A model generated the notes under the pieces. That model worked only from the letters and a program-made list of their open reading frames with translations, was not told the origin of the DNA and did not search any database. This document shows positions 10,635 to 56,251 of a DNA stretch of 64,000 nucleotides, piece by piece. The stretch covers positions 215,423 through 279,422 of the forward strand of contig DATJQV010000081.1 of the NCBI GenBank assembly GCA_035505375.1, given 5' to 3'. Every line of letters starts with the position of its first letter. Positions within the stretch are counted from its first letter, which is position 1. The translations under genes and the position numbers were made by a program. Origin of the DNA: a bacterium. Lineage in GTDB: Bacteria > Hydrothermota > Tepidihabitantia > Tepidihabitantales > Tepidihabitantaceae.

Positions 10635-10832
10635 GAATCTGCTGGGATTTCGTAGACGCGGAACTTAGGGGACAGGTCTTCAGGCAGACTATCTGCAGTC
10701 ATTACTGGGCCAGCGTCTGGCTAATCCTGAACCTGACGCGAGGCGGGGGGATCGAAGCGTGCGGCGCTGCTAGAGGAAGCAGCCAAGCCATTCGCAGACG
10801 GAGCGGGCCAAGTTCTGAGCAGATGGAAGCGG
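10635..10832. other. Intergenic stretch, nothing firm
   Basis: Lies between copy A of the leader and the end of nucleotidyltransferase 1. The phrase ttaggggacaggtcttcagg resembles half of a REP-type element; nothing else was seen. Confidence 0.35.
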
Positions 10833-12062
10833 TCAGGGTTTTCCTGATCCCAGCCATTTGCCCAAGTCGGCAGCGCGGTCGCGGCCATGAGTCCGAAGCA
10901 TCAACCGCGCGCGACGGAAGATGTGGGCCCAGTAGGCTAGGATGACGTCTCTGACTCTTAGCAAGTAGTATGGCCAGAGGTGACTCCTGCCGCGCGACGC
11001 CGGGTACTTCGCCCCCATCTCAGCTCGGGATAGGAACACCCTCTGCCAGGACCGCTTCGCCTTGTCACGAAAGGACCTAGCGCCAAACGCATCGAAGAAC
11101 GGCAACCATCGTACGTAGCTAGCGCGAGCGAGGACGGATTCCCTCGCCGTCTCCAGTATGCGTGCGTCAATGCCACCGGGTACCAACCTCTCAATGACGT
11201 CTTCCGGCACCTCGGCTCCCAACATGCTTTGCGCCAGGCGGAGTGCCAAACCAACGTAGCGCCCTGCGCCCCAATCGCGAGAGCGGTCCACGAATTGAGG
11301 CCAGTCCAGTTCGCCAAAGTGTCGAATGGTCGCAGCAATGTCGCAAAACTGTCGCAGTCCTTCCCCAAGGCCGTGCTCGTAAGAGGTGTGCAGGCAGAGG
11401 TGCAGCAGCAGGTCCTCAGGTGACAGCGCCAGCACCTGTACGCCCGCTGTGGTCGCCGGTTGCGCTCTCTTCCAGAGTCCACCGATATCGACTCTGAGGG
11501 GACTCGTGGGGCTGGCTATGCTCCAGTGGAGGTCCACGCTGGAACCTAACCCTACAAACGGGGTGAGTTCCGAGCTTCTCCGGCACCGGGCATCAATGTC
11601 CTCTCGCTTCTGGGGGCCGTAGCCCATGCCAAGCAGTCTGGCCTGCGCCCTCGGTAGGTCTGCTCTCGCAACCAGGAGATCGACGTCGACCATTGGCCGG
11701 AGTGCGACATTGTCGTAGACACCCTCAGCCAGGTATGCGCCCTTCAAGACGATGACCGGGATATCGGCGTCGCTACAGCACTGGAGCACTGGTCGAAGCT
11801 GCCGAAAGAGGCGCGTGTTCCGCTCGGCGTTGACGAAGTAGACCAGTCGCAGCCGGTCCCAGGAATCGGCCGGGACGCCCGCCTGAACCCCGCTCTCCTT
11901 GAGCCGCCTGTAGAGGAGTGGACCAAGACCGTGGCTCTCTGCTAGCTCCACGACTTCGCCCCACGCAGCCGACGGTTGGCGACTGACTGCGGAACGCTGA
12001 AGCCGGCCAGACAGACAACTGAGTAGCAGTTCGACGGCTGAGGCCCTGTCTGCTATTGCGAT
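10833..12062 (-). CDS. NTP_transf_5-like nucleotidyltransferase, module 1
   Basis: About 409 residues. Conserved with two other copies in the locus: SAVELLLSCLSG at the N-terminus, then VIVLKGAYLAEGVYD...RPMVDVDLLV, a minimal nucleotidyltransferase pattern with an acidic DxD pair. LSPEDLLLHLCLH and a terminal WLGSGKP follow. In phosphorylated lasso-peptide clusters this family accompanies HPr-kinase-like enzymes, so tailoring of a phosphorylated peptide is a reasonable inference. Homology begins at or just after an ATC/ATA pair overlapping the stop of the preceding pseudogene. No ATG, GTG or TTG is close, so the start is uncertain. The same is true of the other two copies. Confidence 0.8.
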   Translation of the reverse strand: MAIADRASAVELLLSCLSGRLQRSAVSRQPSAAWGEVVELAESHGLGPLLYRRLKESGVQAGVPADSWDRLRLVYFVNAERNTRLFRQLRPVLQCCSDADIPVIVLKGAYLAEGVYDNVALRPMVDVDLLVARADLPRAQARLLGMGYGPQKREDIDARCRRSSELTPFVGLGSSVDLHWSIASPTSPLRVDIGGLWKRAQPATTAGVQVLALSPEDLLLHLCLHTSYEHGLGEGLRQFCDIAATIRHFGELDWPQFVDRSRDWGAGRYVGLALRLAQSMLGAEVPEDVIERLVPGGIDARILETARESVLARASYVRWLPFFDAFGARSFRDKAKRSWQRVFLSRAEMGAKYPASRGRSHLWPYYLLRVRDVILAYWAHIFRRARLMLRTHGRDRAADLGKWLGSGKP

Positions 12063-12634
12063 GGTGGATTCGAGGTCGGGGGTTGGGGGGCAGCAGTTGA
12101 GGAAGAGGGACGAGTGACGAAAGACGAAGAGACAGCAGCTAGGAGAACCCGCGCGTCCACAAACAGCCGGAAGGGCCGGCGGATATGCCACTGGTCGCGC
12201 TGGTCGTCGTACTCCCCGACCACCAGACTGCCCATCAACAGCTTCAAGAACACGCGGTAGTGGGCGTCGAACCGTACGAGTCTGGCCAGAAGACTCCGGG
12301 GCAGCAGACTGTCGAGGGGCCCGAGGCGGGCTGCGAAGTCGTAAAGTGTGTGAGGAACAAGACCGGCGTGCTTCCGGACGGCTTGGCCGAGACGCACGCA
12401 GCGAAGATACGCAAGCCCCTGCCACCCGCCGGCGATTGCGCGGCGCCGCGCTCCGCGCTGCTTTGCTGCGACCCGACCGATGATATCAGAACCCACGGGT
12501 CGTCCCGCCCACAGTTGTCCCCACGCGTTCTAATACTGCCGGTCGGTTCCCCGCGCCCATTCCACCCTCGCCCGATGGAAACGACGCGATGCACGATTGT
12601 CCTACCTGCGTCGGATGACTTGAAGTAGACGACG
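12053..12634 (-). pseudogene. Remnant of kinase-S26B fusion, module 1
   Basis: Homologous to the C-terminal part of the fusion at 14266-15891. It starts at VVYFKSSDAGRTIVHRVVS and keeps the catalytic His and RTRGDN. The whole kinase domain and the Ser motif are missing. Near 12484 about 10 nt are lost after DDPWVL, shifting the frame; the remaining 144 codons (IIGRV... to NPPSQ) continue in another frame. The upstream junction at 12630-12634 joins sequence homologous to the spacer after precursor 2 directly to the S26 domain, with CGTCG present at both parental sites. This indicates a deletion with short homology. Confidence 0.8.
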
Positions 12635-12741
12635 GTTCTCGGACTCAGAGGGACATGCTGCTGTTCCAGTCACTCGAGAACCCAGACTGTTCGCCCGCCC
12701 AGACGAAGAAATCGCTGCCCACGACTAGTACGTGGGACCTA

Positions 12742-12969
12742 CTAGAACGTTCCTCCCGAGCTACCACTATAGCAATGGCTGGCACTATTACCTGTGTCGT
12801 GACACCCACCGCCCTGTGCGGACCCTCCGGTGAAGCATAGCCACGTCGCGCCGCTCCCCGTCTGGCAGTTTTGGCCTGCGTCGGCCATGCCGCCTGCCGC
12901 ATCGCGCAGGTGTACTGCACGCGGTGACTCGTACTTCGGGCCCGAAGATGCTGACTTAGACTGTCTCAT
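12742..12969 (-). CDS. Cys-rich RiPP precursor peptide 1
   Basis: 75 residues from ATG 12969 (GAGGTG 4 nt upstream). The leader carries KYESPRAVHLRDAAGG, nearly the same as in precursor 2. The core has four Cys in repeating units: CQTGSGATWLC, CFTGGSAQGGGC, CHDTGNSASHC and CYSGSSGG, i.e. C-x(2,3)-G-x2-A-x(2-4)-C. It is rich in Gly, Ser and Ala with no Lys in the core, as expected of a modified peptide rather than a globular protein. It heads module 1 (minus strand). Its own kinase partner is deleted, so it would depend on enzymes of the other modules. Confidence 0.85.
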   Translation of the reverse strand: MRQSKSASSGPKYESPRAVHLRDAAGGMADAGQNCQTGSGATWLCFTGGSAQGGGCHDTGNSASHCYSGSSGGTF

Positions 12970-13232
12970 GCAACACCTCAGCTTTCGTGCCATTCCCCGG
13001 GCGCGCACGCGCGTACCTTTGGGGCAGCACCATTCCATACCGGAAGGGCTCCGGTTCCATGCCTGATGTTGGGTGGTTACTATGAGCGAGGTATCGGAGA
13101 GACAACGAATCGGTCAGTCTGCCGGGCAGTGAGAACCTCATCACACCGTTGACCGTTCAGAGTGACCGGTCTCACCGGTATCCGCACTCAGCCTCGCGAA
13201 AACACTACCGGCGACGGTTCGCGTGTCAAGGA
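12970..13232 (-). repeat. Duplicated promoter/leader region, copy B
   Basis: About 260 nt, nearly identical to 10381-10634; the longest unbroken identity is in the block from 13040 to 13230. It stops at the start codon of precursor 1, so two unrelated coding sequences share one leader. Confidence 0.85.
13202..13229 (-). promoter_or_regulatory. Predicted sigma70 promoter of precursor 1
   Basis: TTGACA (13229-13224), 16-nt spacer, TAGTGT (13207-13202). It implies an untranslated leader of about 225 nt. Confidence 0.5.
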
Positions 13233-13374
13233 AAACACTTGACCCCTGCCGAGCCACGGGCGAGCGCCCCGGGTACCCTCTTGGACGGCTTCAAGCCGGG
13301 ATACGATACCGTGGGAGTGACCAGCAGACGACGCGCAGCGTCGCCCTGAGGAGAAGACGAATGGTCTCGGAGTC

Positions 13375-13572
13375 ATGGCTACGGATGACGCTGACTACGC
13401 GGCGCGGCCTCTGGGGCCGCTACCGAACCGGATGGAACCGCACATGTACGCGTATGGCGAAGATGCGGGCCTTGGATACCAGGAATCGGAATGCAGAGGT
13501 GCAGACGGGAGTTGTCCGAAGACGGTGCCGAATAGACAGGTGACCGTGTGCGAGGTGAACTTCCGATTCTGA
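13375..13572 (+). CDS. Possible small protein between precursors 1 and 2
   Basis: 65 codons (MATDDADYAARPLGPL... ending VCEVNFRF) with high GC at third positions like its neighbours, an acidic first half and three Cys. CGGAG precedes ATG closely. It lies between two divergent precursor genes. It does not share the KYE(S/A)PRAV leader. It could be a different small peptide of the system, or chance. No family is recognised. Confidence 0.4.
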   Translation: MATDDADYAARPLGPLPNRMEPHMYAYGEDAGLGYQESECRGADGSCPKTVPNRQVTVCEVNFRF

Positions 13573-13582
13573 CTGGGAGAGC

Positions 13583-13623
13583 GGTGTCCACGGAATACGG
13601 TGTCCACGGTGTCCACGGAATAC
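13583..13623. repeat. Three direct repeats of GGTGTCCAC abutting the precursor 2 promoter
   Basis: GGTGTCCACGGAATAC occurs at 13583-13598 and 13608-13623, with an extra GGTGTCCAC at 13599-13607. The last copy ends exactly at the -35 box, a position suited to an activator site. It may equally be a word repeat. Confidence 0.6.
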
Positions 13624-13651
13624 TTGACGTAGAGACCAAGAAGCGTAGAAT
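13624..13651 (+). promoter_or_regulatory. Predicted sigma70 promoter of precursor 2
   Basis: TTGACG (13624-13629), 16-nt spacer, TAGAAT (13646-13651), about 50 nt before the start codon. Confidence 0.6.
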
Positions 13652-13708
13652 CAGCTTAATGTCTTGTAAGGGTACCGTTCCTGCGAATCTAGCGGTGGAG
13701 GTGTGCTC

Positions 13709-13936
13709 TTGAAACCAGCTAATTCAGATCCTTCGGGCCGGAAGTACGAGTCACCTCGTGCAGTACGCCTGCGCGATGCGGCAAGCGGCATAGCCGCAAA
13801 CAACTGCATGTCAGGCAGCAGCGCGTCGACTCTATGCTACGCGCACGGGTCCTCCGCACTGGGCAACGGGTGCAACAGCACAGGTAACAGTGCCAACCAT
13901 TGCTATAGTGGTAGCTCGGGAGGGGCCTTCAGGTAG
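13709..13936 (+). CDS. Cys-rich RiPP precursor peptide 2
   Basis: 75 residues from TTG 13709. This start is preferred over GTG 13703 because GGTGGAG ends 8 nt before it. Leader RKYESPRAVRLRDAASG; core units CMSGSSASTLC, CYAHGSSALGNGC, CNSTGNSANHC and CYSGSSGGAFR. The last 15 residues are almost identical to precursor 1. It opens module 2 and is followed by a hairpin and then the kinase-S26B gene. Confidence 0.85.
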   Translation: MKPANSDPSGRKYESPRAVRLRDAASGIAANNCMSGSSASTLCYAHGSSALGNGCNSTGNSANHCYSGSSGGAFR

Positions 13937-13958
13937 GTCGCACCGGCAAGTCGCGGGC

Positions 13959-14004
13959 GGCGATTCGCACTTCGGGCAAGACAGAATCCGTCTTGCAATT
14001 CGCC
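13959..14004 (+). terminator. Attenuator-like hairpin after precursor 2
   Basis: The inner stem CAAGAC/GTCTTG (13977-13995) sits within an outer GGCGA-TT/AATTCGCC pairing. No U-tract. It could limit read-through so that precursor is made in excess over the enzymes. Confidence 0.45.
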
Positions 14005-14265
14005 AGTGTCTGGAGTAGCAGCGCGCTCCCCTGAGTCCGAGAACCGTCGCCGGACCGCATGGACTATCAGGTGTCAGACAGCAGGGCTGGTACTCAACAG
14101 GGGTCGTCGGACTCCCGTCACAACATAGAGCTGCACGGATCCCTGACTCTTAGAACCTCGGTCACATTTCCTCAGACAGGACGTAACTTCGTAGCTGGTT
14201 TCGGTCCAGTTCGCGTTATTCGTGCCATCGGCGGCGACTTTGGGTCCTGGTAGCGGGCCGAATCG
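14005..14265. other. Spacer between precursor 2 and its kinase gene
   Basis: It contains a 64-codon frame from 14059 to 14253 with no good ribosome binding site and no recognised features, so I do not call it a gene. The first 35 nt align with sequence at the deletion junction of module 1. Confidence 0.4.
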
Positions 14266-15891
14266 ATGCGCAGTCTGAAGCTTGTCCTCGCCGACGGTCG
14301 GCAGTGGGTGATTCACTCGCTCGACGAGGAGACTGCCGCGATAGTCGTCGAACTGGGCAAGGTAATGCGGCTGGGTCCCGTTGTCGGTACGGACCGGCCA
14401 AGCCGGGAAGGACGCGAGTTGTGCGTGTCCCTTGGAGACGAGTCCGTCGAGTCATGCCCGTCAGATGCGGACGTCGGCGGACCGGTTGTTCTTGGTGTTC
14501 ACGCTCCGACCGACCGGGACATGCTGGTTGCCCAGATGATGCGCATCGCAGAAACAATCGCGCGGGAAGCATTGTCTCGCGGGGGCATGTTGCTGCACGG
14601 AGCCCTGGCCGAGCATCGAGGAAACGGCTTCGTTATGGCCGGTCCCGGCACTATCGGCAAGAGCACGGCCAGCCGCCGTCTACCGTTGCCCTGGCATTCG
14701 CTGTGTGACGACACGACGCTGGTCGTGCGGGACGACAAAGGGCAGCACTGGGCACATCCGTGGCCGACTTGGAGTCTCTTCTGGTCTGGCGGGCCCGGAG
14801 GCTCGTGGCCCGTGGAGCAGGCCGTACCCCTTCGGGCAGTTTTCTTCCTTGGCCAAGCACTTGTTGACAAGCTGGAGCCGGTCACCCCCACGCAGGCGAC
14901 CGCCATTCTACTGGAATCCGACATTGGCCTTGTCCGGGCGGCGTCCTCCCCTGTTTCCGACCTCCGGTCATCGGTTCCCTGCGGAATTCGCGCTGCCAGG
15001 TCCCTGGCTGGGGCGGTGCCGGCGTACTCGCTTCAACTGAGCCTTGGCGGCCGGTTCTGGGAGGAAATAGAACGGGTGTTGCCAAAGATCGGAGTCCGGG
15101 GACAGAAGACGGAAGACCGTAGTTGCGTGCCGGTCGTTCAGGAACAGGCGCGGGCCGAGGACTCGCCATCGGAACGTTCCCGGTTCGCAGATGTTTCATT
15201 GCGCATCGTCTGCACCGGGACAAGCATGAATCCGACGCTGCAGGAACGCGACTTGCTCAAGGTCAGGCCGTACGAATCGAGACACGTACGGCGCGGCGAC
15301 GTCGTCTGCTTCAAGTCACGAGACACAGGCAGGATCATCGTGCACCGTGTCGTTTCCGTCGGGCGACGGCGGACGGACGACGAAATCCCGACCGGCAGTA
15401 TCAGAACTCGGGGCGACAACAACCTCACTGAAGACCCGTGGGTGCTGCAGGCCCGTGACGTCATCGGTCGCGTCACCGCATCGCAGCGCGGAGCGCGGCG
15501 TTGGGTAATCGCCGGCGGGTGGTATGGGCTTGCGTATCTCCGTTGCGTGCGTCTCGGCCAGGCTATCCGGAAGCACACCGGTATTGTCCCTCACACGCTT
15601 TACGAGTGCGCAGCCCGTCTTGGACCCTTCACCTACCTGCTGCCCCGGAGTCTCCACCCCAGACTCGTACGGTTCGACGCCCGCTACCGCGTGTTCCTGA
15701 AGCTGCTGATGGGCAGGCGCACGGTGGGGCAGTACGACGACTGGCGCAACGAGTGGCGCATTCAACGCCCGTTCAGACTGTTCGTGCACGCGCAGGCTTT
15801 GCCCGATCCGCTTCACTCGCCCCCGGCCCTTGATAGCTTGCCCGTGTCCGCCGAACCCCAGTCCCCAAACCCGAATCCGCCATCGCACTAG
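14266..15891 (+). CDS. ScmC/HPr-kinase-like domain fused to S26B signal-peptidase-like domain, module 2
   Basis: 541 residues in three parts. Residues 1-270: HPr-kinase-like region with LLHGALAEHRGNGF, P-loop GPGTIGKST (126-134) and HWAHPWPTW, as I recall for the SynChlorMet protein ScmC. Residues about 275-310: variable linker containing word-repeat sequence. Residues 313-400: S26 domain with CTGTSMNPTL (Ser320) and IVHRVV (His360), then RTRGDNN; His rather than Lys is typical of the S26B/ER-type group. The last 100 residues form a conserved tail (LGPF...LLPR...RPFRLF) found in every copy here. Likely cytoplasmic kinase action on the precursor plus leader cleavage (inference). Confidence 0.85.
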   Translation: MRSLKLVLADGRQWVIHSLDEETAAIVVELGKVMRLGPVVGTDRPSREGRELCVSLGDESVESCPSDADVGGPVVLGVHAPTDRDMLVAQMMRIAETIAREALSRGGMLLHGALAEHRGNGFVMAGPGTIGKSTASRRLPLPWHSLCDDTTLVVRDDKGQHWAHPWPTWSLFWSGGPGGSWPVEQAVPLRAVFFLGQALVDKLEPVTPTQATAILLESDIGLVRAASSPVSDLRSSVPCGIRAARSLAGAVPAYSLQLSLGGRFWEEIERVLPKIGVRGQKTEDRSCVPVVQEQARAEDSPSERSRFADVSLRIVCTGTSMNPTLQERDLLKVRPYESRHVRRGDVVCFKSRDTGRIIVHRVVSVGRRRTDDEIPTGSIRTRGDNNLTEDPWVLQARDVIGRVTASQRGARRWVIAGGWYGLAYLRCVRLGQAIRKHTGIVPHTLYECAARLGPFTYLLPRSLHPRLVRFDARYRVFLKLLMGRRTVGQYDDWRNEWRIQRPFRLFVHAQALPDPLHSPPALDSLPVSAEPQSPNPNPPSH

Positions 15892-17105
15892 CAAACACGA
15901 GCCCAGCCGTCGAACTGCTCCTAAGTTCTCTGTCAGGCCGGTTTCAGCGGTCATCCCGACCATCGGCCGCGTGGGGCGAAGTCATAGAACTGGCAGAAGA
16001 ACACAACCTCGCGCCACTCCTGTACCGGCGGCTGAAGGAAGGCGGCGTTCAGACCGACGTCCCGGCCGACTCCCGGGAACGGCTACGGCTGCTCTACTTC
16101 GTCAACGCCGAGCGGAACACGCGCCTCTATCTGGAGCTTCGACGCGTGCTTGAGTGCCTGCTCAGCGACGGTATTCCGGTCATCGTGCTGAAGGGCGCGT
16201 ACCTCGCTGAGGCGGTCTACGACGACCCCGCACTCCGGACGATGAGCGATGCGGACCTGATGGTTCGGAAGACTGAGCTGACAAAGGCCCGGACGATTCT
16301 GCAAGCAATGGGCGGCATTCAGCAGCATCTTGAGGACGTCGAATCGTGCTGCGAGTATGAACCGCACCTTCCAACGATTCTCGTTCGCGAACTCCCGGTC
16401 GATGTCCACTGGACCATAGTCATCCCAAAGGGACCATTCAGGGTAGACAGTTCCGACCTCTGGGATAGGGCACGACCGGCCACGATAGCCGGCGTCGAAG
16501 CGTTGACGCTATCGCCGGAAGACACGCTGTTGCACCTGTGTCTGCATTTCTCCCACAAGCACTACATGTCAGGGCTGCGTTTCCTCTGCGACATCACACA
16601 GGTCATTCAACGCATGCGCCACCAGATAGACTGGACTCAGGTCACGGGGCGAGCCCACGCGTGGGGTGCTGCAAGGCATGTGGGTTTGACACTCCATCTC
16701 GCCCGGAGCATGCTGGGTGCGGGAGTGCCCGATGCGGCCATGGAACAGCTCGTGCCCGGGGGTATTGACCCGCGCATTCTTGAGGCGGCGTTCGAATCTA
16801 TCTTCGAGCTTGGCATGGGCTACGGCCAATGGATGCCGTTCTTCGACCTGCTGGGGGAAGGATCAGTCGTTGGCAAGGCAAGGTTGTCATGGAGGCGGGT
16901 CTTCCTCTCCCGTAAAGAGATGGCTGAGAGGTATCCCATGTCCCGCAATTCACGCCTGCTCTTCCCCTACTACGTGCTGCGAATCAGGGACGGCATCGGA
17001 ACCTACATGTCTCACGTCCGAACGCGACGTCGTCTGATAGCGCAGGGCCGCGAACGCGACGCCAACGCCTTGCTGATTGACTGGCTCGAATCAGGGAAAC
17101 CCTGA
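15882..17105 (+). CDS. NTP_transf_5-like nucleotidyltransferase, module 2
   Basis: About 407 residues. It starts within or at the end of the fusion gene. Homology with the other copies begins at SPAVELLLSSLSG, while the first GTG in frame lies at 16146, far inside the conserved region; ATC 15882 or CTA 15888 are the only codons near the expected start. VIVLKGAYLAEAVYD...TMSDADLMV gives the nucleotidyltransferase acidic pair. LSPEDTLLHLCLHF and the terminal WLESGKP match copies 1 and 3. The preceding in-frame stop is at 15834. Confidence 0.8.
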   Translation: MALANTSPAVELLLSSLSGRFQRSSRPSAAWGEVIELAEEHNLAPLLYRRLKEGGVQTDVPADSRERLRLLYFVNAERNTRLYLELRRVLECLLSDGIPVIVLKGAYLAEAVYDDPALRTMSDADLMVRKTELTKARTILQAMGGIQQHLEDVESCCEYEPHLPTILVRELPVDVHWTIVIPKGPFRVDSSDLWDRARPATIAGVEALTLSPEDTLLHLCLHFSHKHYMSGLRFLCDITQVIQRMRHQIDWTQVTGRAHAWGAARHVGLTLHLARSMLGAGVPDAAMEQLVPGGIDPRILEAAFESIFELGMGYGQWMPFFDLLGEGSVVGKARLSWRRVFLSRKEMAERYPMSRNSRLLFPYYVLRIRDGIGTYMSHVRTRRRLIAQGRERDANALLIDWLESGKP

Positions 17106-17248
17106 CCACTGACTCTGCCCTAGCCCAAGGTGGCACATCGAGCCGCAAGCCCAAGCACGGCTCGCAGTACGGGCATCACGCCAAAGCAGCATCTCAGATC
17201 TCGGTCAACCACTGACTGCTAGCCACAAGCTGCCACGGCAGAATCTCA

Positions 17249-17277
17249 TTGCCAAGGCTGCGACCGATTGCTATAAT
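17249..17277 (+). promoter_or_regulatory. Predicted strong sigma70 promoter for the PqqD/radical SAM operon
   Basis: TTGCCA (17249-17254), 17-nt spacer, TATAAT (17272-17277). It is the best promoter match I found in the locus, with transcription expected from about 17284. Confidence 0.75.
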
Positions 17278-17333
17278 TCGCAGTTAATACTGACATAACC
17301 GTCCCCGGTCGACCGATACCCAATCCGGCGGCC

Positions 17334-17585
17334 GTGGAGGAAGAAGGAACCGATGGTTGGACCCTGCTGGTGAACCCTGATACGGCAGGGGCCATGGCTG
17401 TTAACCACACCGGGGCTTTGGTCTGGAGGCTGGTTGACGGCAGGCGCACGACTGATGAGATTGTTGCGGCTGTACGCAGCCGGTTCCCGGATGCGCCTGA
17501 CTCGGTGGCTGATGACGTACTTGAGATCCTGGCCAAGCTGACTGGCGAAGGGTTCATCGGTCAGGAAATACCGCTGAGGGAGTGA
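17334..17585 (+). CDS. PqqD-like RiPP recognition protein 1 (ScmD-like)
   Basis: At least 83 residues. LLVNPDTAGAMAVNHTGALVWRLVDG followed by TTDEIVAAV is the PqqD fold pattern of leader-peptide recognition elements. GTG 17334 is the first standard start, but residues just before it (RPIPNPAA) also look like PqqD sequence. The frame is open back to 17277 with only ATA/GTT/GTC codons, so the true start may be non-standard. Expected role: binding the KYE(S/A)PRAV leader and delivering it to the radical SAM enzymes. It is followed after 4 nt by a second PqqD gene. Confidence 0.8.
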   Translation: MEEEGTDGWTLLVNPDTAGAMAVNHTGALVWRLVDGRRTTDEIVAAVRSRFPDAPDSVADDVLEILAKLTGEGFIGQEIPLRE

Positions 17586-17589
17586 AAAG

Positions 17590-17886
17590 ATGAGTGATGC
17601 GAAGACCTACCGTGCGAACGAAGTAGTCTCATGCGTTGACGAAGGCGAAGACGGGGCAATGCTCTACAACCCGGACAAGGACGACACCATCCTGCTTAAT
17701 CCGTCAGGACGTGCAGTCTGGTCCTTCATCACCGCCCCTCGAACCCTCGACGACATTGCCGGCCACCTGACCACCGTCTACCCCGGTATTGCACGCGAAC
17801 AGGCTGTTCACGACGCCGAAGAGTTCATCCAGTCACTTCTACCCGACTTCATACTGGTCGAGCAGAAAACCGACGGCGCGGTCTAG
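17590..17886 (+). CDS. PqqD-like RiPP recognition protein 2
   Basis: 98 residues with MLYNPDKDDTILLNPSGRAVWSFI and a helical second half, the same fold pattern as the preceding protein but only distantly similar. GAGGGAG within the end of the previous gene serves as ribosome binding site. Two PqqD proteins next to two SPASM enzymes suggests one adaptor per enzyme or per leader (inference). Confidence 0.85.
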   Translation: MSDAKTYRANEVVSCVDEGEDGAMLYNPDKDDTILLNPSGRAVWSFITAPRTLDDIAGHLTTVYPGIAREQAVHDAEEFIQSLLPDFILVEQKTDGAV

Positions 17887-17896
17887 GGATTCAGCC

Positions 17897-19108
17897 GTGG
17901 CACAGACTTACCCCGAACCCCTCCCGATGCCGGACGTCACCGAGCCGCCGCCGGGCCTGAGCCGTTTTCCGAAGTCGCTCGATCTCTCGCTGACCGGACG
18001 CTGTAACCTCAAATGCCGGTACTGCTTCTACGCCGACGAGATGACTGCACTGAACGACATGCCCGCTGCGCGCTGGCACGCTCTGTTTGAGGAGCTGGGC
18101 AAGCTGGGGGTTCAGAACGTCTCCCTGTCGGGCGGCGAGGTCTTCACCCGGCCCGACCTGTTCGAGCTGATCGACGGTATCATCGCCAACAAGATGCGCT
18201 ATGGCATCCTCACCAATGGGACCCTCATCACCGAGGAGACGATCAAGGAGTTTGCCAAAGGAAAGCGCCGCCTGAGGCTGGATTCGATTCAGGTCTCGAT
18301 CGACGGGTCCTGTGCCGAGATCCACGACCAAAGCCGGCCGCCGAAGAGCTTCGACCGGGCGCTGCGCGGCCTCCGGCTGCTGAAAGAGGCCGGCTTCCCG
18401 GTCGCCGTGCGTGTAACGGTCAACCGGGCCAACGTGAATGACCTGCCGAACGTGGCTCGGCTGCTGATCGAGGATGTCGGCCTCCCCGGCTTCAGCACCA
18501 ACGAGGCGGAGCAGATGGGCTCGGCCCGGTGCTACGGCGAGAACGTGGTTCTTACCAACGCCGAGCGAAAGCAGGCGATGGAAACCCTGACGAATCTCAA
18601 CAAGAAGTACAATGGACGGATAAGCGCGACCGCCGGACCGCTGGCTGCGGCTGCCCACTTCGCCGAGATCGAAAAGGCCTGCGCTGAGGGAAAGACGGGT
18701 ATACCGGGTCGCGGCACCCTCTGTTCCTGCGGAGGGGTCTTCACAAAGCTGGCGATACTGCATGACGGGACCATCGTCCCCTGCAACATGCTGCCCAAGC
18801 TTGTCATGGGTGTCTTCGGCCACCACTCGCTTGCCGAGGTATGGCGCGAAAGCCCGGCAATAAACGCAGTGCGCTATCGCCGCCGGATACCGCTGCAGTC
18901 CCTGCCGTCGTGCAAGGACTGCTCGTATGCGGGTTTCTGCGCAGGGGGCTGCCCGGGGTCAGCCATGGCCCGGTTCGGAAGGTTGAATGTACGTGACCCG
19001 CTGGTTTGCTACCGCGTGTTCAAGGGAGAAGAGAAAGACGAACCTCCATCCGCCGAAGAGCTGAAGGCGGCAGACGCGGGCGGAGGTCGGACCCGGCAGC
19101 AACGCTGA
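17897..19108 (+). CDS. scmE: Radical SAM/SPASM enzyme (ScmE-like)
   Basis: 403 residues from GTG 17897 (AGGGA 8 nt upstream; ATG 17927 is the alternative). LTGRCNLKCRYCFYAD supplies the CX3CX2C [4Fe-4S] ligands (Cys36, 40, 43), and LSGGEVFTRPDL is the GGE motif for S-adenosylmethionine. The C-terminal SPASM region has LCSCGG, VPCNM and CKDCSYAGFCAGGCPGS for auxiliary clusters. Such enzymes install thioether or C-C links on ribosomal peptides. The whole sequence fits my memory of the SynChlorMet ScmE group; the exact reaction is not known from sequence. Confidence 0.9.
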   Translation: MAQTYPEPLPMPDVTEPPPGLSRFPKSLDLSLTGRCNLKCRYCFYADEMTALNDMPAARWHALFEELGKLGVQNVSLSGGEVFTRPDLFELIDGIIANKMRYGILTNGTLITEETIKEFAKGKRRLRLDSIQVSIDGSCAEIHDQSRPPKSFDRALRGLRLLKEAGFPVAVRVTVNRANVNDLPNVARLLIEDVGLPGFSTNEAEQMGSARCYGENVVLTNAERKQAMETLTNLNKKYNGRISATAGPLAAAAHFAEIEKACAEGKTGIPGRGTLCSCGGVFTKLAILHDGTIVPCNMLPKLVMGVFGHHSLAEVWRESPAINAVRYRRRIPLQSLPSCKDCSYAGFCAGGCPGSAMARFGRLNVRDPLVCYRVFKGEEKDEPPSAEELKAADAGGGRTRQQR

Positions 19109-19189
19109 GACCGCCGACGGACTGAGAATGCGGGAAAAGGAACCGCACGCAAGAAATCAGACCTAGGGAACAAGGAGTGAGGACCAGAC

Positions 19190-20407
19190 ATGGCATTGTG
19201 TGAAACCAACACCGACGTCGATTCCCCAGCCACTCGACCGCCGTCATTGCCCGAGGGTGTTCCGCCTCTGGGTGCGTACTACCTGTACCTGTCCAGCAGC
19301 TGCAACCTGCGTTGCCGCCACTGCTGGATTACGCCGGGTTTCACGGCGGACGGCAGGCCTGACCCGGGTAACGTGGTTGACCTGAATGCATTGCGTGAGG
19401 CGGTCCGCGAAGGAAAAACCCTCGGCCTGTGTCATGCCAAGCTCACCGGCGGCGAACCCATGCTGCATCCTCGGTTCCTTGAAATCGTGGACATGCTGAC
19501 CGAGGAGAACATCGGCATGGACATGGAAACGAATGGTACTCTGCTCACTGCCGAGGCCGCCCGCCACCTGCGGGAGAAAACGAAGCTCGCCTTCATCTCG
19601 CTCAGCCTGGACGGCCGTGACGCGGAGACCCACGATGCGTTTCGGCGAGTGCCCGGTGCGTTTGACGCCGTTCTTCGGGGACTCGGGTATCTTGTGAACG
19701 CTGGATATAAGAACTGCCAGGTCATCATGAGCGTGCACCACGGCAACCGCGACCAGATCGAGGACGTCGTGAAGCTGGCCGCCAGTCGCGGTGCAGCCTC
19801 GGTCAAGTTGAATCCGGTCACCATGACCGGCCGAGGGGCGCTGATGCACGAGCAGGGCGAAGGGTTGGGGTTTGACGACTACCTGGCCTTGGCCCGCTGG
19901 GTTTCCGGCGACTTGCGTCCCAAAGCTCCGATTCCAGTAATCCTGGAGATGCCGCCCGGGATGGTATCATTCCGAGAACTCTGGCGGACCCACGGTCGAG
20001 CCGGTGATTGCGGTGTGCTTGGCGTTCTAGGCATCCTCGGCACGGGCGAAATCGCGCTCTGTGGCATCGGCCAGACTCATCCGGAATTCGTCTATGGGCG
20101 ATTGGGTGAAAACCGCATTCGGGACATCTGGCTCTCGAACCCGATAATCCTCGCCTTGCGTCGGGAACTCGAGGCCGCCGATTCGTATCCCGGCATATGC
20201 GGCGAGTGCATTTTCGCCAAGCGGTGCCGGACGAGTTGCGTGGCAGACAATTACATTCACAGCGGCCGGCTTGTCTCCCCTAACTGGCTCTGCGCTGAGG
20301 CGGCACGCCGCGGTGCTTTCCCGTCCGGCCGGGCGCAGAGGAAGCACAAGAATCACGGAACCAAGGGTCCGAGTGACGCCATTGAGCGGGGGCAAGAAAT
20401 ATCTTGA
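19190..20407 (+). CDS. scmF: Radical SAM/SPASM enzyme (ScmF-like)
   Basis: 405 residues. SSCNLRCRHCW gives the CX3CX2C site (Cys38, 42, 45), LTGGEPMLHP the S-adenosylmethionine motif, and MDMETNGTLL and ISLSLDG the following strands. The C-terminal Cys clusters are GDCGVLG, LCGIG, and YPGICGECIFAKRCRTSC. The segments LPEGVPPLGAYYLYLSSS and LGILGTGEIALCGIG match what I recall of ScmF. AAGGAG lies upstream of ATG. The stop codon overlaps the -35 box of precursor 3, so the enzyme and peptide genes are directly linked. Confidence 0.9.
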   Translation: MALCETNTDVDSPATRPPSLPEGVPPLGAYYLYLSSSCNLRCRHCWITPGFTADGRPDPGNVVDLNALREAVREGKTLGLCHAKLTGGEPMLHPRFLEIVDMLTEENIGMDMETNGTLLTAEAARHLREKTKLAFISLSLDGRDAETHDAFRRVPGAFDAVLRGLGYLVNAGYKNCQVIMSVHHGNRDQIEDVVKLAASRGAASVKLNPVTMTGRGALMHEQGEGLGFDDYLALARWVSGDLRPKAPIPVILEMPPGMVSFRELWRTHGRAGDCGVLGVLGILGTGEIALCGIGQTHPEFVYGRLGENRIRDIWLSNPIILALRRELEAADSYPGICGECIFAKRCRTSCVADNYIHSGRLVSPNWLCAEAARRGAFPSGRAQRKHKNHGTKGPSDAIERGQEIS

Positions 20408-20432
20408 CACGATGGCAGGGGGGGGATAAAAT
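20404..20432 (+). promoter_or_regulatory. Predicted strong sigma70 promoter of precursor 3
   Basis: Perfect TTGACA (20404-20409), 17-nt spacer, TAAAAT (20427-20432). The -35 overlaps the stop codon of the ScmF-like gene. Confidence 0.75.
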
Positions 20433-20492
20433 CCAAGTGTCTAATGGCTACACGCGGCAAACAGAATTTGTAAGAGAATAAGGAGTGCTGAG

Positions 20493-20753
20493 ATGGAGAA
20501 AACGCTAGACCCGAAGTACGAAGCTCCGCGGGCCGTTCGTCTTGACGACCGGTCACTGGCCTATGGCGAGTGCCAGAATGGTACTACCGCCACGTCGAAC
20601 TGTGGACCCAGCGGTGGTAGTGCAGTTGCTTGCTTCAACGGTATTTCTGCAGGCGCCTCGTGTCTGAACGACGGAAGCAGTGCGCACGGATGCCAGACTG
20701 GCACGTCGCCGTCATTCAGTTGCACAGGCAACGGCGCCTCGGTTGCCTTCTAG
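20493..20753 (+). CDS. Cys-rich RiPP precursor peptide 3
   Basis: 86 residues from ATG 20493 with TAAGGAG 8 nt upstream. Leader PKYEAPRAVRLDDRSLAYG. The core has six Cys in units CQNGTTATSNC, CGPSGGSAVAC, CFNGISAGASC, CLNDGSSAHGC and CQTGTSPSFSC, then CTGNGASVAF. The spacing alternates between x2-G-x2-A-x3 and x3-G-x2-A-x2, a regular ladder. It has its own strong promoter and a strong hairpin downstream, so it should be the most abundant product. Thioether (sactipeptide- or ranthipeptide-like) links are plausible but not shown. Confidence 0.9.
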   Translation: MEKTLDPKYEAPRAVRLDDRSLAYGECQNGTTATSNCGPSGGSAVACFNGISAGASCLNDGSSAHGCQTGTSPSFSCTGNGASVAF

Positions 20754-20795
20754 TATAGAGGACTTAGATACTAGGGGCATAGCCCGTTACACTAC

Positions 20796-20830
20796 CCAGA
20801 GGCCGTCGAGCTGCGCTCGACGGCCTCTGG
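20796..20830 (+). terminator. 16-bp perfect hairpin after precursor 3
   Basis: CCAGAGGCCGTCGAGC (20796-20811), loop TGC, GCTCGACGGCCTCTGG (20815-20830), then a weak CAATTTG. Likely a partial terminator separating abundant precursor mRNA from downstream enzyme genes, which have no promoter I can see. Confidence 0.75.
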
Positions 20831-20901
20831 CAATTTGAAGGCTCTTTCAGAGAGACAGCCCGCAGACATTTCCGCTGAGTCGATAAGGAGTCACGCGTAT
20901 A

Positions 20902-22518
20902 GTGGACAATACCAGGGAAAGACCCCGGATCGGGGTTCGACTGGCACTTGCGGACGGTCAGCGTTGGGTAGTTCGGCCCGCTGACAGGCAATCGGCGGAA
21001 GCCGTTGCTGAACTCATGCAAGTCATGCGGCTCGACCCGGGAGACCACGGACGTGAGATTCACGTGGCGGTCTGTCGTACGCGAGCCGGTCTATTCGACG
21101 GCGCGACCGACGATTGCGCACCGCTATGCTTTATTCCCTTCCGCCTGAACCGTGAATTAGAGGTCGTCCAAATGGAGATGATCGCCGCTTTCGTCGCGCG
21201 TGCGGCCCTCAGGCGAGAATCCCTGCTGCTGCATGGCGCGCTGGCCGAGTACCGCGGCAGCGGTTTCATCATGGCCGGGCCGGGCGGAATCGGCAAGAGC
21301 ACGGCCAGCCTCCGCCTGCCCTCGCCCTGGCGTACGTTGTGCGACGACATGACGCTGGTCGTGCGGGACGACAACGGCCAGTATTGGGCACACCCATGGC
21401 CGACATGGAGTCGTTTGGCACGAGGCGAAACGGGTTGTTCCTGGGACGTCCAGCGGGCCGTGGCACTCCGTGCGCTGTTCTTCCTCGGTCGAGGGACCAC
21501 GGACATGTTGAGGCCGGTCAGCCCAGTGCAAGCGAGCGCTCTGCATATGGAATCGGCTCTGAATCTGGCCCGAACCCCGTTGTTGCCGGTCCCCGATCCG
21601 ACCTTCCCAGTTTCCACCGGAATCAGGGCTGCCAAGGCGCTGGCACTTGCCGTCCCGGCGTACTCGCTGAAGCTCAGCCTGACTGGCCGATTTTGGGAGG
21701 AGATTGAGCGCGTATTGCCTGCTGCGACCGGGGATCAGGGACCCAACGCTACCGACCGTGTCATGTCTCCAATCCGTGGTCATGTCCCGCACTTGACCCC
21801 GGCGTCATTCTCTCCACCATCCGCGGAGTCCGATCTGCCGTCGCGCGGCGTCACCGACGGTTTGTTGCGTCTGGTCTACACCGGCGTCAGTATGAAACCG
21901 ACGCTTCGCGACCCCGAGTTGGTTGAAGCCGAGCCCTGTGGGACACAACCACTGCGTCCGGGCGACGTCGTGTGCTACGAGTCACCGGTGACCGGTGCTA
22001 CAGTTGTGCGTCGCGTCGTGTCGGTCGAAAGACAAGGGACCGGGGATCGGGGATCGGTCAACGGAATACGGACCCGGGCGGACAACGCCTCCCACGACGA
22101 CCTGGAGACTTTGACTACTGAAGGAATCATCGGACGAGTAACGGGTGCGGGGCGCGGCGTCCGATTTCGAGCAATCCACGGCGGACGCAGGGGCCTGGTG
22201 ACGCTCTGGCTGGCACGCTGGAGAGAACGCATCCTAGGCAGCGCCTATCTCATCCCTCACGCGCTGTATCACTATGTTGCCGGCCTCGGCCCGTTCGACC
22301 ACCTCCTCCCGCGACGTTTGCGGCCCCGGCTAGTGCGCTTCGACGCCCGTGGTCGCGTGTTACTCAGGCTGGTAAATGACCGGCAGACAGTCGGACGATA
22401 CAACGAACTCATGGAACGGTGGTACATCCGACGCCCGTTTCGGCTGTTCGTGGACAAGCGGGCCCTGAGCGACGCATGTTCGCTAGCCTTGGGCAGTGGG
22501 CCGGGGCGAAATCCATAA
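20902..22518 (+). CDS. ScmC/HPr-kinase-like domain fused to degenerate S26B domain, module 3
   Basis: 538 residues from GTG 20902 (AAGGAG upstream). It is colinear with the module 2 fusion: LLHGALAEYRGSGF, P-loop GPGGIGKST at the same residues 126-134, YWAHPWPTW, linker, S26 domain, conserved tail. The Ser of the peptidase motif is kept (GVSMKPTL, Ser330), but the His position reads VVRRVV (Arg370, codon CGT where the others have CAC), and RTRGDN has become RTRADN. Peptidase activity is therefore doubtful while the kinase P-loop is intact. A separate S26B gene lies downstream in the same module. Confidence 0.85.
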   Translation: MDNTRERPRIGVRLALADGQRWVVRPADRQSAEAVAELMQVMRLDPGDHGREIHVAVCRTRAGLFDGATDDCAPLCFIPFRLNRELEVVQMEMIAAFVARAALRRESLLLHGALAEYRGSGFIMAGPGGIGKSTASLRLPSPWRTLCDDMTLVVRDDNGQYWAHPWPTWSRLARGETGCSWDVQRAVALRALFFLGRGTTDMLRPVSPVQASALHMESALNLARTPLLPVPDPTFPVSTGIRAAKALALAVPAYSLKLSLTGRFWEEIERVLPAATGDQGPNATDRVMSPIRGHVPHLTPASFSPPSAESDLPSRGVTDGLLRLVYTGVSMKPTLRDPELVEAEPCGTQPLRPGDVVCYESPVTGATVVRRVVSVERQGTGDRGSVNGIRTRADNASHDDLETLTTEGIIGRVTGAGRGVRFRAIHGGRRGLVTLWLARWRERILGSAYLIPHALYHYVAGLGPFDHLLPRRLRPRLVRFDARGRVLLRLVNDRQTVGRYNELMERWYIRRPFRLFVDKRALSDACSLALGSGPGRNP

Positions 22519-22609
22519 GGTTAGCTCTCACTTTTGACATGACCCGAGAGACTTGGGCAAAATCGGTGCACCAGGTCTCACTGACGAACGAGACCGATCG
22601 GCTGTAAGG

Positions 22610-24595
22610 ATGGCCCACACCGGCGAGCACACCGCAGACAACGCCGTGCCCGGGATTGGCGAGACCTTGAAACAGAGCCTCCACCTTGGCCGTGCGATTC
22701 GCCTGGTCTGGGGCATCGCTCCGGGCTGGACAGTCACGAATCTTGTCATGGTTGTCGTGCAGGGATTGCTGCCCCTGCTTGCACCCTACTTCATGAAACG
22801 CACCATCGATGCCCTTCAGGCCGCCATGACGGTGCACGTCGGGGTTGTCGCCTTTCGCCCGGTCCTGTTCTGGGTCACTCTCGCCGCCGCGGCAGCGTTG
22901 GTTTCGGCCCTGCTTGGTTCATTGGCCGGGCTGTTCGGGCAGTACCAGTCCATGGTCTTTTCCGACAAGGTGACCGACATCGTGCACAGCAAATCGGTTG
23001 CGGCTGACCTTGAGTACTACGAGAATCCCAGTTACTTCGACACGATGCAGCGGGCTCAGATCGAAGCCTCCTCCCGCCCCATTGGCGTGGTCAACCGCCT
23101 CACCGGTATCGGACGGAATGCGGTCTCGCTGGTCGGTATTGCCGGCCTGCTGCTCGCTTTCTCCCCGCTGATCACGCTGGTCCTTTTCTGCGTAGCCCTG
23201 CCCGGTGCTTTGGTGCAGTCACTATACGCCCGCCGCCAGTACCGCCTCGAACTGGAGCAGACGGAAAAGGAACGTCAGGCGTCATACTACCACTTCATGC
23301 TGACTGGTACATGGTTCGCCAAGGAGCTGCGCCTGTTCAACCTCGGGTCTTTGTTCCGGACCCGGTTCCAGGCCCTGCGTCAGCAACTGCGAGGGGTAAG
23401 ACTAGCGCTGGCCCGGCGGCGCACTGTGGCCGGTCTGTTGGCTCAGTCCTTGACCTCAGCCGCCATCTTCGGCTCCCTTGCTTTCATTGCGTATCGGGTC
23501 TACAAAGGGACCACGACCCTCGGCAGTCTGGTGATGTACTACTCTCTCTTTCAGCTGGCGGTTGGCTCGTTCGCAAGCGTCCTAAGCGGAGTGGCCGGGC
23601 TCTACGAAGACAATCTCTTTCTTTCCAACTTCTACAAGTTCCTGGACCTGAAGCCCAAGCTCCTGGCGCCGGCGAACCCGGCGCCGGCCCCGACCAGAAT
23701 CAGCCGGGGCATCGAATTCCACGACGTGCACTTCACCTACCCGAGCGATTCCCGCAAAGTGCTCGAGGCGGTCAATCTGAGCATCGCGCCGGGCCAGGTG
23801 ATTGCTCTAGTTGGTGCCAACGGCTCAGGCAAGACCACGCTCGTGAAACTCCTCTGCCGGCTTTACGACCCGGACTCGGGCAGCATCACGGTTGACGGCG
23901 TTGACATTCGCCGACTCGACCCGGACAAGTGGCGGAGGCGGGTCAGCGTCATTCTCCAGGACTACGTGCAGTACAGCATGACCGCCTGGGAGAACATCTG
24001 GCTGGGTGACGTGGAAAGCGAGCCCGACCGGGGTCGTATTGTCAGGGCGGCCGAACTCTCCGGTTCGGACTCAGCGATCCGTAAGCTACCCCAGGGCTAT
24101 GACACACCGCTGGGCTATCAATTCAAGCATGGCCGGGAACTGAGCATCGGCGAGTGGCAGAAGGTGGCACTGGCTCGCGCGTTTCTGCGGGACTCGGAGC
24201 TCGTCGTTCTTGACGAGCCGACCAGTTCGCTCGACCCGTTGGCAGAATCCGAGGTCTTTGAACACTTCCGCAACATCATCCATGGGAGAAGCGCAGTGCT
24301 GGTCAGTCATCGCTTCTCCACGGTCCGGTTGGCCGACCGTATCTGCGTTCTCGAGCATGGACGAGTCGTGGAATCCGGCAATCACCGGGAACTTCTCGAT
24401 CTCGGCGGCATCTACGCCCGCCTCTATTCGGCACAAGCCGCCCGGTACCAGGATAAACCGAACAGCACGGCCGAATCTCCGCGGCACGGTGTTTCTTCAC
24501 CGGTAGTATTCCCATCAGCGGTTGAGAAGTCGGCGACTGCGGATGGCGATGACCTGCGAAGCGCCGATCGATGGCTGCATCACCATGACCGTTGA
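22610..24595 (+). CDS. ABC exporter (membrane domain fused to ATPase)
   Basis: 661 residues from ATG 22610 (TTG 22553 is an alternative; neither has an ideal ribosome binding site). An N-terminal membrane domain with about six helices is followed by an ATPase with Walker A GANGSGKTT, signature LSIGEWQKVALARAF, Walker B LVVLDEPTSSLD and switch VSHR. There is no N-terminal C39 peptidase domain, so leader removal must come from another protein, presumably the S26B proteins of the locus. Expected to export the matured peptide. It overlaps the start of the next gene. Confidence 0.9.
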   Translation: MAHTGEHTADNAVPGIGETLKQSLHLGRAIRLVWGIAPGWTVTNLVMVVVQGLLPLLAPYFMKRTIDALQAAMTVHVGVVAFRPVLFWVTLAAAAALVSALLGSLAGLFGQYQSMVFSDKVTDIVHSKSVAADLEYYENPSYFDTMQRAQIEASSRPIGVVNRLTGIGRNAVSLVGIAGLLLAFSPLITLVLFCVALPGALVQSLYARRQYRLELEQTEKERQASYYHFMLTGTWFAKELRLFNLGSLFRTRFQALRQQLRGVRLALARRRTVAGLLAQSLTSAAIFGSLAFIAYRVYKGTTTLGSLVMYYSLFQLAVGSFASVLSGVAGLYEDNLFLSNFYKFLDLKPKLLAPANPAPAPTRISRGIEFHDVHFTYPSDSRKVLEAVNLSIAPGQVIALVGANGSGKTTLVKLLCRLYDPDSGSITVDGVDIRRLDPDKWRRRVSVILQDYVQYSMTAWENIWLGDVESEPDRGRIVRAAELSGSDSAIRKLPQGYDTPLGYQFKHGRELSIGEWQKVALARAFLRDSELVVLDEPTSSLDPLAESEVFEHFRNIIHGRSAVLVSHRFSTVRLADRICVLEHGRVVESGNHRELLDLGGIYARLYSAQAARYQDKPNSTAESPRHGVSSPVVFPSAVEKSATADGDDLRSADRWLHHHDR

Positions 24596-25373
24596 ACAGT
24601 GTCGGGTGGAAGACCTCGGCGGCGAATGGTCAGGCGAGACAACCCCGGCCAAACCCAGCGTGGCAATCGACTTTCGCTCAATCGAATCGGTCATTATCAA
24701 GGGAAGACGTTGTGTAGTCTATGCCGGGCCGAGCATGAACCCGACACTCCACGAGCCGGATCTGCTTTGGATTGAGCCCTATTGTGCCGAACGCGTGCGG
24801 CGGGGCGATGTCGTATGCTTCAAGTCCGCCGAGAACGGCAGAACCATCGTGCACCGCGTCGTGTCCGTCAGGCGACGGGAGACCGGGGACGGTGGCCCGC
24901 AGGACGAAATCCGGACGCGGGGAGACAACAACCCAAAGGACGATCTCTGGACTCTGCGGCCCGCTGATATCATCGGCCGCGTTACGATTGCGCAACGAGG
25001 CGCCAGACGCCGGGCCATCTACGGCGGTTGGCGCGGGTTTGCCGCCCTTCGTTGGGTGCGACTTGGTCAGAATCTCTATGGGTTCGGCGGATCTGTTCCT
25101 CGCCGGCTGTACCACCTCGCGGCGGGCCTCGGGCCGTTCGACCGCCTTCTTCCTCAAGCTTGTCGGCCGCGGGTCGTGCGCTTCGTCAGTTCGTCCCACA
25201 CGCACCTGAAGCTCCTGATGGGCAGGTTGCTGGCAGGGCAGTTCGATGCGCACCTCGGGACGTGGCACGTCCGCCCGCCGTTCCGTCTGTTTGTTGATGA
25301 GTACGACCTTCCCGATCCGCGCTCATTGCCCCCTGGTCCCCGAACCCCGACACCTAACTCGACATACCCATAA
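24585..25373 (+). CDS. Stand-alone S26B signal-peptidase-like protein, module 3
   Basis: 262 residues from ATG 24585, which overlaps the ABC gene stop (starts at 24522 or 24546 are possible). The S26 domain is intact: YAGPSMNPTL (Ser50), IVHRVV (His90), RTRGDNN. The same C-terminal tail as in the fusions follows (LGPFDRLLPQ ... RPPFRLFVDE). No transmembrane helix of the usual signal-peptidase kind is seen, so it may act in the cytoplasm or with the exporter. It would supply the activity missing from the degenerate domain of the upstream fusion. Confidence 0.85.
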   Translation: MTVEQCRVEDLGGEWSGETTPAKPSVAIDFRSIESVIIKGRRCVVYAGPSMNPTLHEPDLLWIEPYCAERVRRGDVVCFKSAENGRTIVHRVVSVRRRETGDGGPQDEIRTRGDNNPKDDLWTLRPADIIGRVTIAQRGARRRAIYGGWRGFAALRWVRLGQNLYGFGGSVPRRLYHLAAGLGPFDRLLPQACRPRVVRFVSSSHTHLKLLMGRLLAGQFDAHLGTWHVRPPFRLFVDEYDLPDPRSLPPGPRTPTPNSTYP

Positions 25374-26596
25374 GAAGTCGCACCTCAGCCGCCGAACTGC
25401 TCCTCGGTTGTCTGTACGGTGAAGAACCGGAAGCCGGGGACCGGACCTCGACGACGGCTGACTGGGGCGAAGTCGCTGACACGGCCGTCCGCCACGGCCT
25501 TGCGCCACTGCTTTTCAAGCGCCTGAAGGGACGCACCGCACGGACTCGCATCCCGCCCGCGGTTTGGACGCAGTTGAGCCAGGCCTACTTCATCAGCGCC
25601 GCCAGAAACGGTCGGCTCTATCGAGAGCTCAGGTCCTTGCTTGGCTGCCTGCGCAGTGCGGGCATCCAGGTGATCGTGTTAAAGGGCGCGTTCCTGGCAG
25701 AGGCGGTGTACGGCGACATTGCGCTCAGGCCGATGTGCGACATCGACCTCATGGTTCCGAAAGACGACTTGTCAAAGGCCCAGACCATCCTGATCGCCAA
25801 TGGCGGGGTTCTTCAGCAACGCGGAGACATCGAGCTGTTCCGCGTGGAAAGACATCATCACGTTGCGCCGGTCGTTGTCGGCAACCTCTTTGTGGAGCTG
25901 CATTGGACTATCACGCCCTTCACCGGACCGGTGGAGATAGACGCCGTCGGTCTCTGGGCCCGGGCCCGACCGGCAACGGTGGCCGGTGTGCAGCTAACGG
26001 CTCTCTCACCCGAGGACCTGTTGCTCCACCTCTGTCTTCACTTCGGCCGAGACAACCGCCTCACTGGCCTGCGCTCCTTCTGTGACATCGCGCAGACCAT
26101 CAGCCACTACCGCCGCGAGATGGACTGGCAGCAGGTCGTTCGCCTGGCCCACGAATGGGGAGCGACAAGACATGTGGGCTTGGAACTCCATCTGGCAAGG
26201 CGCATGCTGAACGCGGCAGTCCCCGACTACGTCCTCGAGGGTTTGGTGCCTGGCGGTATCGACCGGCCCATACTTCAGGCGGCGATGCAATTCGTATACA
26301 CCCAGACCGACTACCACCAGTGGATGTCACTGTTCGACATGGAAGGTGCAAGGTCAATCGGAGACAAGGTGAAACTGCTGTGGAGACGGGTCTTCCTGTC
26401 CCGCGACGAGATGGCCGCGGTGTATCCCGCGGCTCGTAACTCGGGGTTTCTCTGGTCTTACTACCTGCTGCGGGTGAGAGACGTCGTCCGTGCCTACTGG
26501 TTCCGGACCGCGAGGCGAGGCCTGCCACTGGTCCGAGGTCCCGAGAAAGACCGGAATGTTTCGCTGGTCAACTGGCTGAAGTCAGGAAAGCCCTGA
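25370..26596 (+). CDS. NTP_transf_5-like nucleotidyltransferase, module 3
   Basis: About 408 residues. Homology to the other copies starts at TSAAELLLGCLYG. The frame opens after a stop at 25355-25357 and contains no ATG, GTG or TTG until 25574, well inside the domain. ATA 25370 overlaps the TAA of the upstream gene (ATAA). VIVLKGAFLAEAVYGD...RPMCDIDLMV is the catalytic pattern; LSPEDLLLHLCLHFG and the terminal WLKSGKP agree with copies 1 and 2. Confidence 0.8.
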   Translation: MRSRTSAAELLLGCLYGEEPEAGDRTSTTADWGEVADTAVRHGLAPLLFKRLKGRTARTRIPPAVWTQLSQAYFISAARNGRLYRELRSLLGCLRSAGIQVIVLKGAFLAEAVYGDIALRPMCDIDLMVPKDDLSKAQTILIANGGVLQQRGDIELFRVERHHHVAPVVVGNLFVELHWTITPFTGPVEIDAVGLWARARPATVAGVQLTALSPEDLLLHLCLHFGRDNRLTGLRSFCDIAQTISHYRREMDWQQVVRLAHEWGATRHVGLELHLARRMLNAAVPDYVLEGLVPGGIDRPILQAAMQFVYTQTDYHQWMSLFDMEGARSIGDKVKLLWRRVFLSRDEMAAVYPAARNSGFLWSYYLLRVRDVVRAYWFRTARRGLPLVRGPEKDRNVSLVNWLKSGKP

Positions 26597-56203: not shown

Positions 56204-56251
56204 AAGTTCTGTTTGACGCAGCTAGTAGAGCCGCGGTTGGCCGGCCATGGC

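Follow-up and report, generated by a model that had tools for sequence, protein, structure and literature searches.

A gene cluster at about 10833–26596 of the window (the whole 64-kb stretch of bacterial DNA analysed here, on contig C81 of genome G000) is a divergent lineage of SynChlorMet (Scm), a named, apparently uncharacterised cassette for ribosomally made and modified peptides (RiPPs). Its genes suggest that it probably makes small cysteine-rich peptides that are cross-linked, phosphorylated, perhaps sugar-bearing, trimmed and exported. We regard it as likely that the locus is biosynthetic, of the SynChlorMet type, and follows the pathway set out below, in which every chemical step, including the cross-links, the phosphate and the sugar, and the order of the steps are predictions. 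Most likely, leader binding would be followed by radical cross-linking, then by phosphorylation, decoration of the phosphate, leader removal and finally export.

The cluster goes beyond a chance assembly of genes, because curated models match its proteins, its gene order recurs in relatives (the initial annotation had suggested looking for the same gene set in other genomes) and its precursor repeats occur far above their frequency in shuffled cores. Scm cassettes are named in databases; our literature search returned nothing on SynChlorMet and nothing relevant on ScmE or ScmF, and it likewise found no described product. To our knowledge, this locus has the clearest anatomy of any Scm cassette, with a precisely defined leader, a repeat unit, a probable site of cleavage and a signal-peptidase-like protease that is soluble and tied to a kinase, and this anatomy turns an old annotation into testable predictions. 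New features are the broken inverted module, fused peptidases that have lost catalytic residues beside an intact separate one, and the S26B peptidase without a membrane segment. What surprised us was how widely the family is spread, the link of a kinase to a soluble Sec11-like peptidase, and the loss of residues from fused copies where a separate peptidase exists.

Identity of the locus

NCBIfam and Pfam searches recovered every gene of the initial annotation in its place. Scm models were the top match for the core enzymes except the second PqqD-like protein, for which a lasso PqqD model was slightly ahead. Both fusions of an HPr-kinase-like domain with an S26B domain exceed the curated ScmC cut-off of 125 bits (TIGR04249): ScmC1 (14266–15891, plus strand, as are all further genes of the cluster unless stated) scores 156.3 bits and ScmC2 (20902–22518) 143.9 bits. 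The two radical SAM/SPASM enzymes, ScmE (about 17921–19108) and ScmF (19190–20407), reach 393.4 bits (TIGR04250) and 334.6 bits (TIGR04251), below the cut-off of 400 for each, yet the Scm models are their best matches by far. The first PqqD-like protein (17334–17585; PF05402, 58.8 bits) scores 54.1 bits with the ScmD model (TIGR04248; cut-off 100), and precursor 3 scores 7.4 bits with the ScmA model (cut-off 35). The initial annotation had likened the locus to SynChlorMet; by the curated rule ScmC alone qualifies, since ScmA, ScmD, ScmE and ScmF fall below their cut-offs.

Phylogenetic trees place the ScmF of the window in one clade with that of a Desulfomonile cassette (L083; support, 100/100) and group the ScmE proteins of the two loci with moderate support (92/93). 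In the Desulfomonile cassette, ScmC, ScmD, ScmE and ScmF are all above the curated cut-offs; its candidate precursor scores nothing with the ScmA model either, although the other Scm proteins pass, and shows repeats of the type described below for the window. The window thus shares with SynChlorMet (TIGR04248–TIGR04252) the ScmC-D-E-F set and short Cys-repeat precursors, and adds a second PqqD-like protein, the kinase–peptidase fusion, NTP_transf_5 proteins and satellite precursor–kinase modules. Cys-rich precursors and SPASM radical SAM enzymes are also found in sactipeptide and ranthipeptide loci; unlike these, the window combines two radical enzymes with a kinase and a peptidase, and its scores with the AlbA, SkfB and PapB models are far under those with the Scm models.

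To the left of the cluster, a lipoprotein (9265–10413) is represented in the genome by further related and broken copies, one of which lies beside a second RiPP-like locus on contig C60. We dropped it from the cluster: a relative lies beside an Scm locus in one genome (G007), but another occurs in a genome without ScmC (G005), and the lipoprotein is probably unrelated.

Precursor peptides and predicted radical chemistry

The cluster encodes three precursors: peptides 1 (12742–12969, minus strand) and 2 (13709–13936, with a TTG start preceded by GGAGG), each of 75 amino acids and 62% identical, and peptide 3 (20493–20753), which has 86 amino acids and six Cys units. They have a common leader motif, K/R-Y-E-x-P-R-A-x-x-L, in which Y, P, A and L are invariant among 11 sequences of the WOR-3 family. 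Precursors were gathered partly by motif, so the leader statistics are biased towards it; the core and pre-Cys patterns were not selection criteria beyond a minimum Cys/Gly count. The distance from the leader Tyr to the first core Cys is 17–20 residues in 28 of 30 peptides, and a small-x-Gly motif stands 0–2 residues ahead of this Cys in 24 of the 30 (4.4 ± 1.9 in shuffles). Core units fit C-x2-3-G-x2-[AP] in 82 of 117 cases, compared with 9.1 ± 2.8 in shuffled cores (maximum, 21). The initial annotation had named the absence of precursors from enzyme-bearing relatives as evidence against its reading; all six such relatives searched have precursors, and none was found in G005, a genome of the same genus in which the enzymes are absent. 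Conservation and repeat statistics together rule out chance open reading frames.

The two PqqD-like proteins (the second at 17590–17886; PF05402, 41.3 bits) are predicted to bind leaders and would hold the common motif. ScmE and ScmF each have a CxxxCxxC motif and seven SPASM-type Cys, and they would introduce radical cross-links, most likely Cys thioethers, into each repeat unit. It is also conceivable, though on present evidence fairly unlikely, that these enzymes make carbon–carbon links, epimerised residues or thioether-free oxidation products, with the Cys residues forming disulfides. The acceptor residue is indeed not fixed, given that the unit varies after the Gly and that Ala or Pro occupies the G+3 position in 72% of units. 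However, a Cys stands at the head of each unit, with units spaced 9–12 residues apart, and it is the sole fully kept residue, which speaks against this alternative.

Predicted leader removal, phosphorylation and decoration

The cluster contains a separate S26B peptidase (24522–25373; TIGR02228, 57.6 bits, above cut-off) that has Ser71, His111 and Asp135. The fused S26B domain of ScmC1 (TIGR02228, 54.8 bits; cut-off 51.85) also has all three residues (Ser320, His360 and Asp384), and ScmC2 has Arg370 where the catalytic His is expected. The closest solved relatives of S26B are human SEC11C (7p2q) and SEC11A, to which the Ser, His and Asp align. A fold search with the kinase–S26B fusion found PEPCK/HprK folds and SEC11C; the AlphaFold model used was middling (mean pLDDT of 64, nine sequences) and served solely to support these two folds. 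The Ser-His-Asp layout is like that of the Sec11/SipW signal peptidases (S26B). Unlike these, the S26B of the window has no membrane anchor, and most copies here are fused to a kinase. No membrane segment was predicted in the S26B protein or the fusions, whereas an ordinary signal peptidase at 54446–55261 has one. The latter is one of two adjacent signal peptidases of the ordinary, membrane-anchored kind that closely resemble each other (54446–56221), about 30 kb from the cluster.

As S26B lacks a membrane segment, we infer that the leader is cleaved in the cytosol. Signal peptidases prefer small residues at positions −3 and −1, a preference that the small-x-Gly pattern before the first Cys fits; S26B would cut after this motif. 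No protease other than S26B was recognised in the cluster. The ABC protein (22553–24595), predicted to export the product, has six membrane segments and lacks an N-terminal C39 peptidase domain, its matches to NHLP-type exporters starting at profile position 193.

An alternative that we consider improbable is that the S26B domain has only a regulatory or leader-binding role, the leader being removed by another protease of the cell. Fused domains that have lost catalytic residues are retained not only in ScmC2, which lacks the His, but also in the relatives L025 and L028, in which Ser is replaced by Ala and His by Arg. All three clusters with dead fusions nevertheless have an intact separate S26B, and the fused domain is intact in the six loci in which no separate gene was seen (L023, L024, L049, L054, L056 and L060). 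The window, L025 and L028 clusters come from one genus, so the residue losses may represent one or two events. The pairing of dead fusions with an intact separate gene argues against the alternative.

The kinase domains of ScmC1 and ScmC2 both have His111, Lys132, Asp148 and Asp149, and would phosphorylate core Ser/Thr. According to a review, lasso-peptide kinases have His-Lys-Asp-Asp residues. The site used in lasso peptides is the C-terminal Ser. In pseudomycoidin, PsmK phosphorylates the peptide and PsmN, annotated as a nucleotidyltransferase, adds hexoses to the phospho-Ser; the review does not settle whether PsmN itself is the glycosyltransferase. Rumen bacteria commonly have lasso clusters that include genes for HPr-kinase-like, PqqD and nucleotidyltransferase proteins, and the link of the kinase and nucleotidyltransferase to lasso clusters made in the initial annotation is documented in the literature. 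The cluster resembles the loci for phosphorylated lasso peptides (paeninodin and pseudomycoidin) in its His-Lys-Asp-Asp kinase, with the motif as quoted in the review, and in a nucleotidyltransferase-like protein, PsmN being compared to NTP_transf_5 by annotation; it differs in that its precursors are built of Cys repeats and lack a C-terminal Ser, a point against the proposed pathway. By analogy with PsmK and PsmN, the NTP_transf_5 protein may attach a sugar or nucleotide to the phosphate.

Three NTP_transf_5 proteins (PF14907) are encoded: protein 1 (10833–12056, minus strand; 213 bits), protein 2 (15888–17105, approximate start; 162 bits for the shortened open reading frame and 219.6 for the full domain) and protein 3 (about 25370–26596; 186 and 221 bits, respectively). 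Where their conserved part begins, none of these genes carries ATG, GTG or TTG, and each starts upstream of the first such codon. The start is probably ATA for protein 1 (12056, minus strand, overlapping the stop of the adjacent gene remnant) and for protein 3 (25370, plus, overlapping the S26B stop); protein 2 has an unusual start codon, with CTA at the corresponding site (15888, plus). Each of the three codons overlaps the upstream stop by two bases. At the same site, the NTP_transf_5 gene of a relative (L030) has an ATG that overlaps the upstream stop. Translation may possibly be coupled on an unusual codon.

Quite improbable, in our view, is a scheme in which the kinase and NTP_transf_5 protein act on a sugar or carrier, so that the peptide becomes linked to an exopolysaccharide or to the cell envelope. 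The cluster does border a polysaccharide operon on its right, with a Wzc-like gene (26832–29012), an SLBB protein (29080–29700) and a polysaccharide synthase-like protein (31042–33246), and three relatives (L024, L026 and L029) likewise have Wzc-like genes close to their Scm genes. In most distant Scm loci, however, no Wzc-like gene is nearby, and in lasso clusters the HPr-kinase-like and nucleotidyltransferase genes act on peptides, as we propose for this locus. A lasso-peptide locus was rejected, as no lasso cyclase and no partner lasso leader peptidase was found among the cluster proteins scanned with NCBIfam and Pfam.

Distribution of the cassette and its modules

ScmC is above cut-off in 7 of 61 genomes around the window, all 7 within one family; the relatives of the window at the family and genus levels belong to candidate division WOR-3 and are classified in Caldifarciminota. 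NTP_transf_5 is present in all seven family genomes with Scm-type genes and in none of the seven without. A scan of 84,980 species genomes found ScmE relatives at 43–84% identity in WOR-3, Chloroflexota, KSB1, Desulfococcaceae, Methanothrix (an archaeon), Acidobacteria, Verrucomicrobia and others. Sequences from WOR-3, Chloroflexota, KSB1, Methanothrix and deltaproteobacteria form one well-supported clade in the ScmE tree, and this mixture points to transfer between lineages.

The initial annotation took S26B and the nucleotidyltransferase to be additions that make the pathway a hybrid. We rejected S26B as an add-on, because it occurs across phyla in 30 of the 35 ScmE loci with at least 4.5 kb downstream, including the Desulfomonile cassette, where its gene adjoins ScmC and the Scm proteins pass their cut-offs. 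The kinase is likewise present in 30 of these 35 loci. No S26B was detectable in five ScmE loci of Verrucomicrobia/Kiritimatiellae. Among the 17 ScmE loci with two long flanks, NTP_transf_5 is frequent and not universal (11 loci), and 11 have an ABC protein. Two PqqD units are commonly present, as two genes or a single open reading frame of about 220 residues; in Verrucomicrobia-like loci, the first is fused to ScmE. The S26B–kinase fusion is confined to the branch of the window and is present in WOR-3, Methanothrix and three deltaproteobacterial or other loci.

Of the three modules around an Scm-like core described by the initial annotation, the core and the modules stand, and the first module is not a working copy. 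Modules A and B mirror each other in inverted orientation: the stretch 12630–12959 aligns to 13719–14049 with 75% identity, and 10828–12634 aligns to 15300–17110 with 70% identity over 1.8 kb. Module A is missing some 1.25 kb in which the kinase would lie, and what remains of its kinase–S26B gene (12056–12634, minus strand) matches the S26 part of ScmC1 in two frames (tblastn). The first module is a broken inverted copy of the second, with the kinase deleted and the S26B frame broken. Its NTP_transf_5 gene has kept an open frame, in which silent changes outnumber amino-acid changes relative to the module B twin (dN, 0.34; dS, 0.94); for precursors 1 and 2, the values (dN, 0.25; dS, 0.33) come from 73 codons, too short for a firm reading. 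In relatives, additional precursor or kinase modules lie apart from the core (L026, L029, L030, L032 and L146–L150), which suggests that one core may serve several precursors in trans. At L149 (8177–9000) and L150 (7054–7756), away from the core cluster, a precursor of the same type adjoins a lone PqqD gene.

We tentatively propose, as a reading that is possible and still short of probable, a widespread peptide class, found in bacteria and one archaeon, in which Cys-repeat peptides would be radically cross-linked, phosphorylated and glycosylated, and then released in the cytosol by a Sec11-like peptidase that has no membrane segment and is fused to the peptide kinase, with precursor–kinase–nucleotidyltransferase modules multiplying around one shared radical SAM core. 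If this is true, a single peptide would combine radical cross-links with phosphate and sugar, and an enzyme of the Sec11 type would function away from any membrane.

The genome of the window contains another RiPP-like locus (L151, G000:C60:1-12230), which has genes for PqqD, S26B, a radical SAM–kinase fusion, two more radical SAM proteins and NTP_transf_5, and L148, L152 and L153 are similar loci. A precursor that matches those of the Scm cluster in leader and repeats is present in the corresponding locus of genome G003 and, among the three similar loci, in L148. Together, the precursor class, S26B, kinase and NTP_transf_5 may thus constitute a family larger than the Scm cassette.
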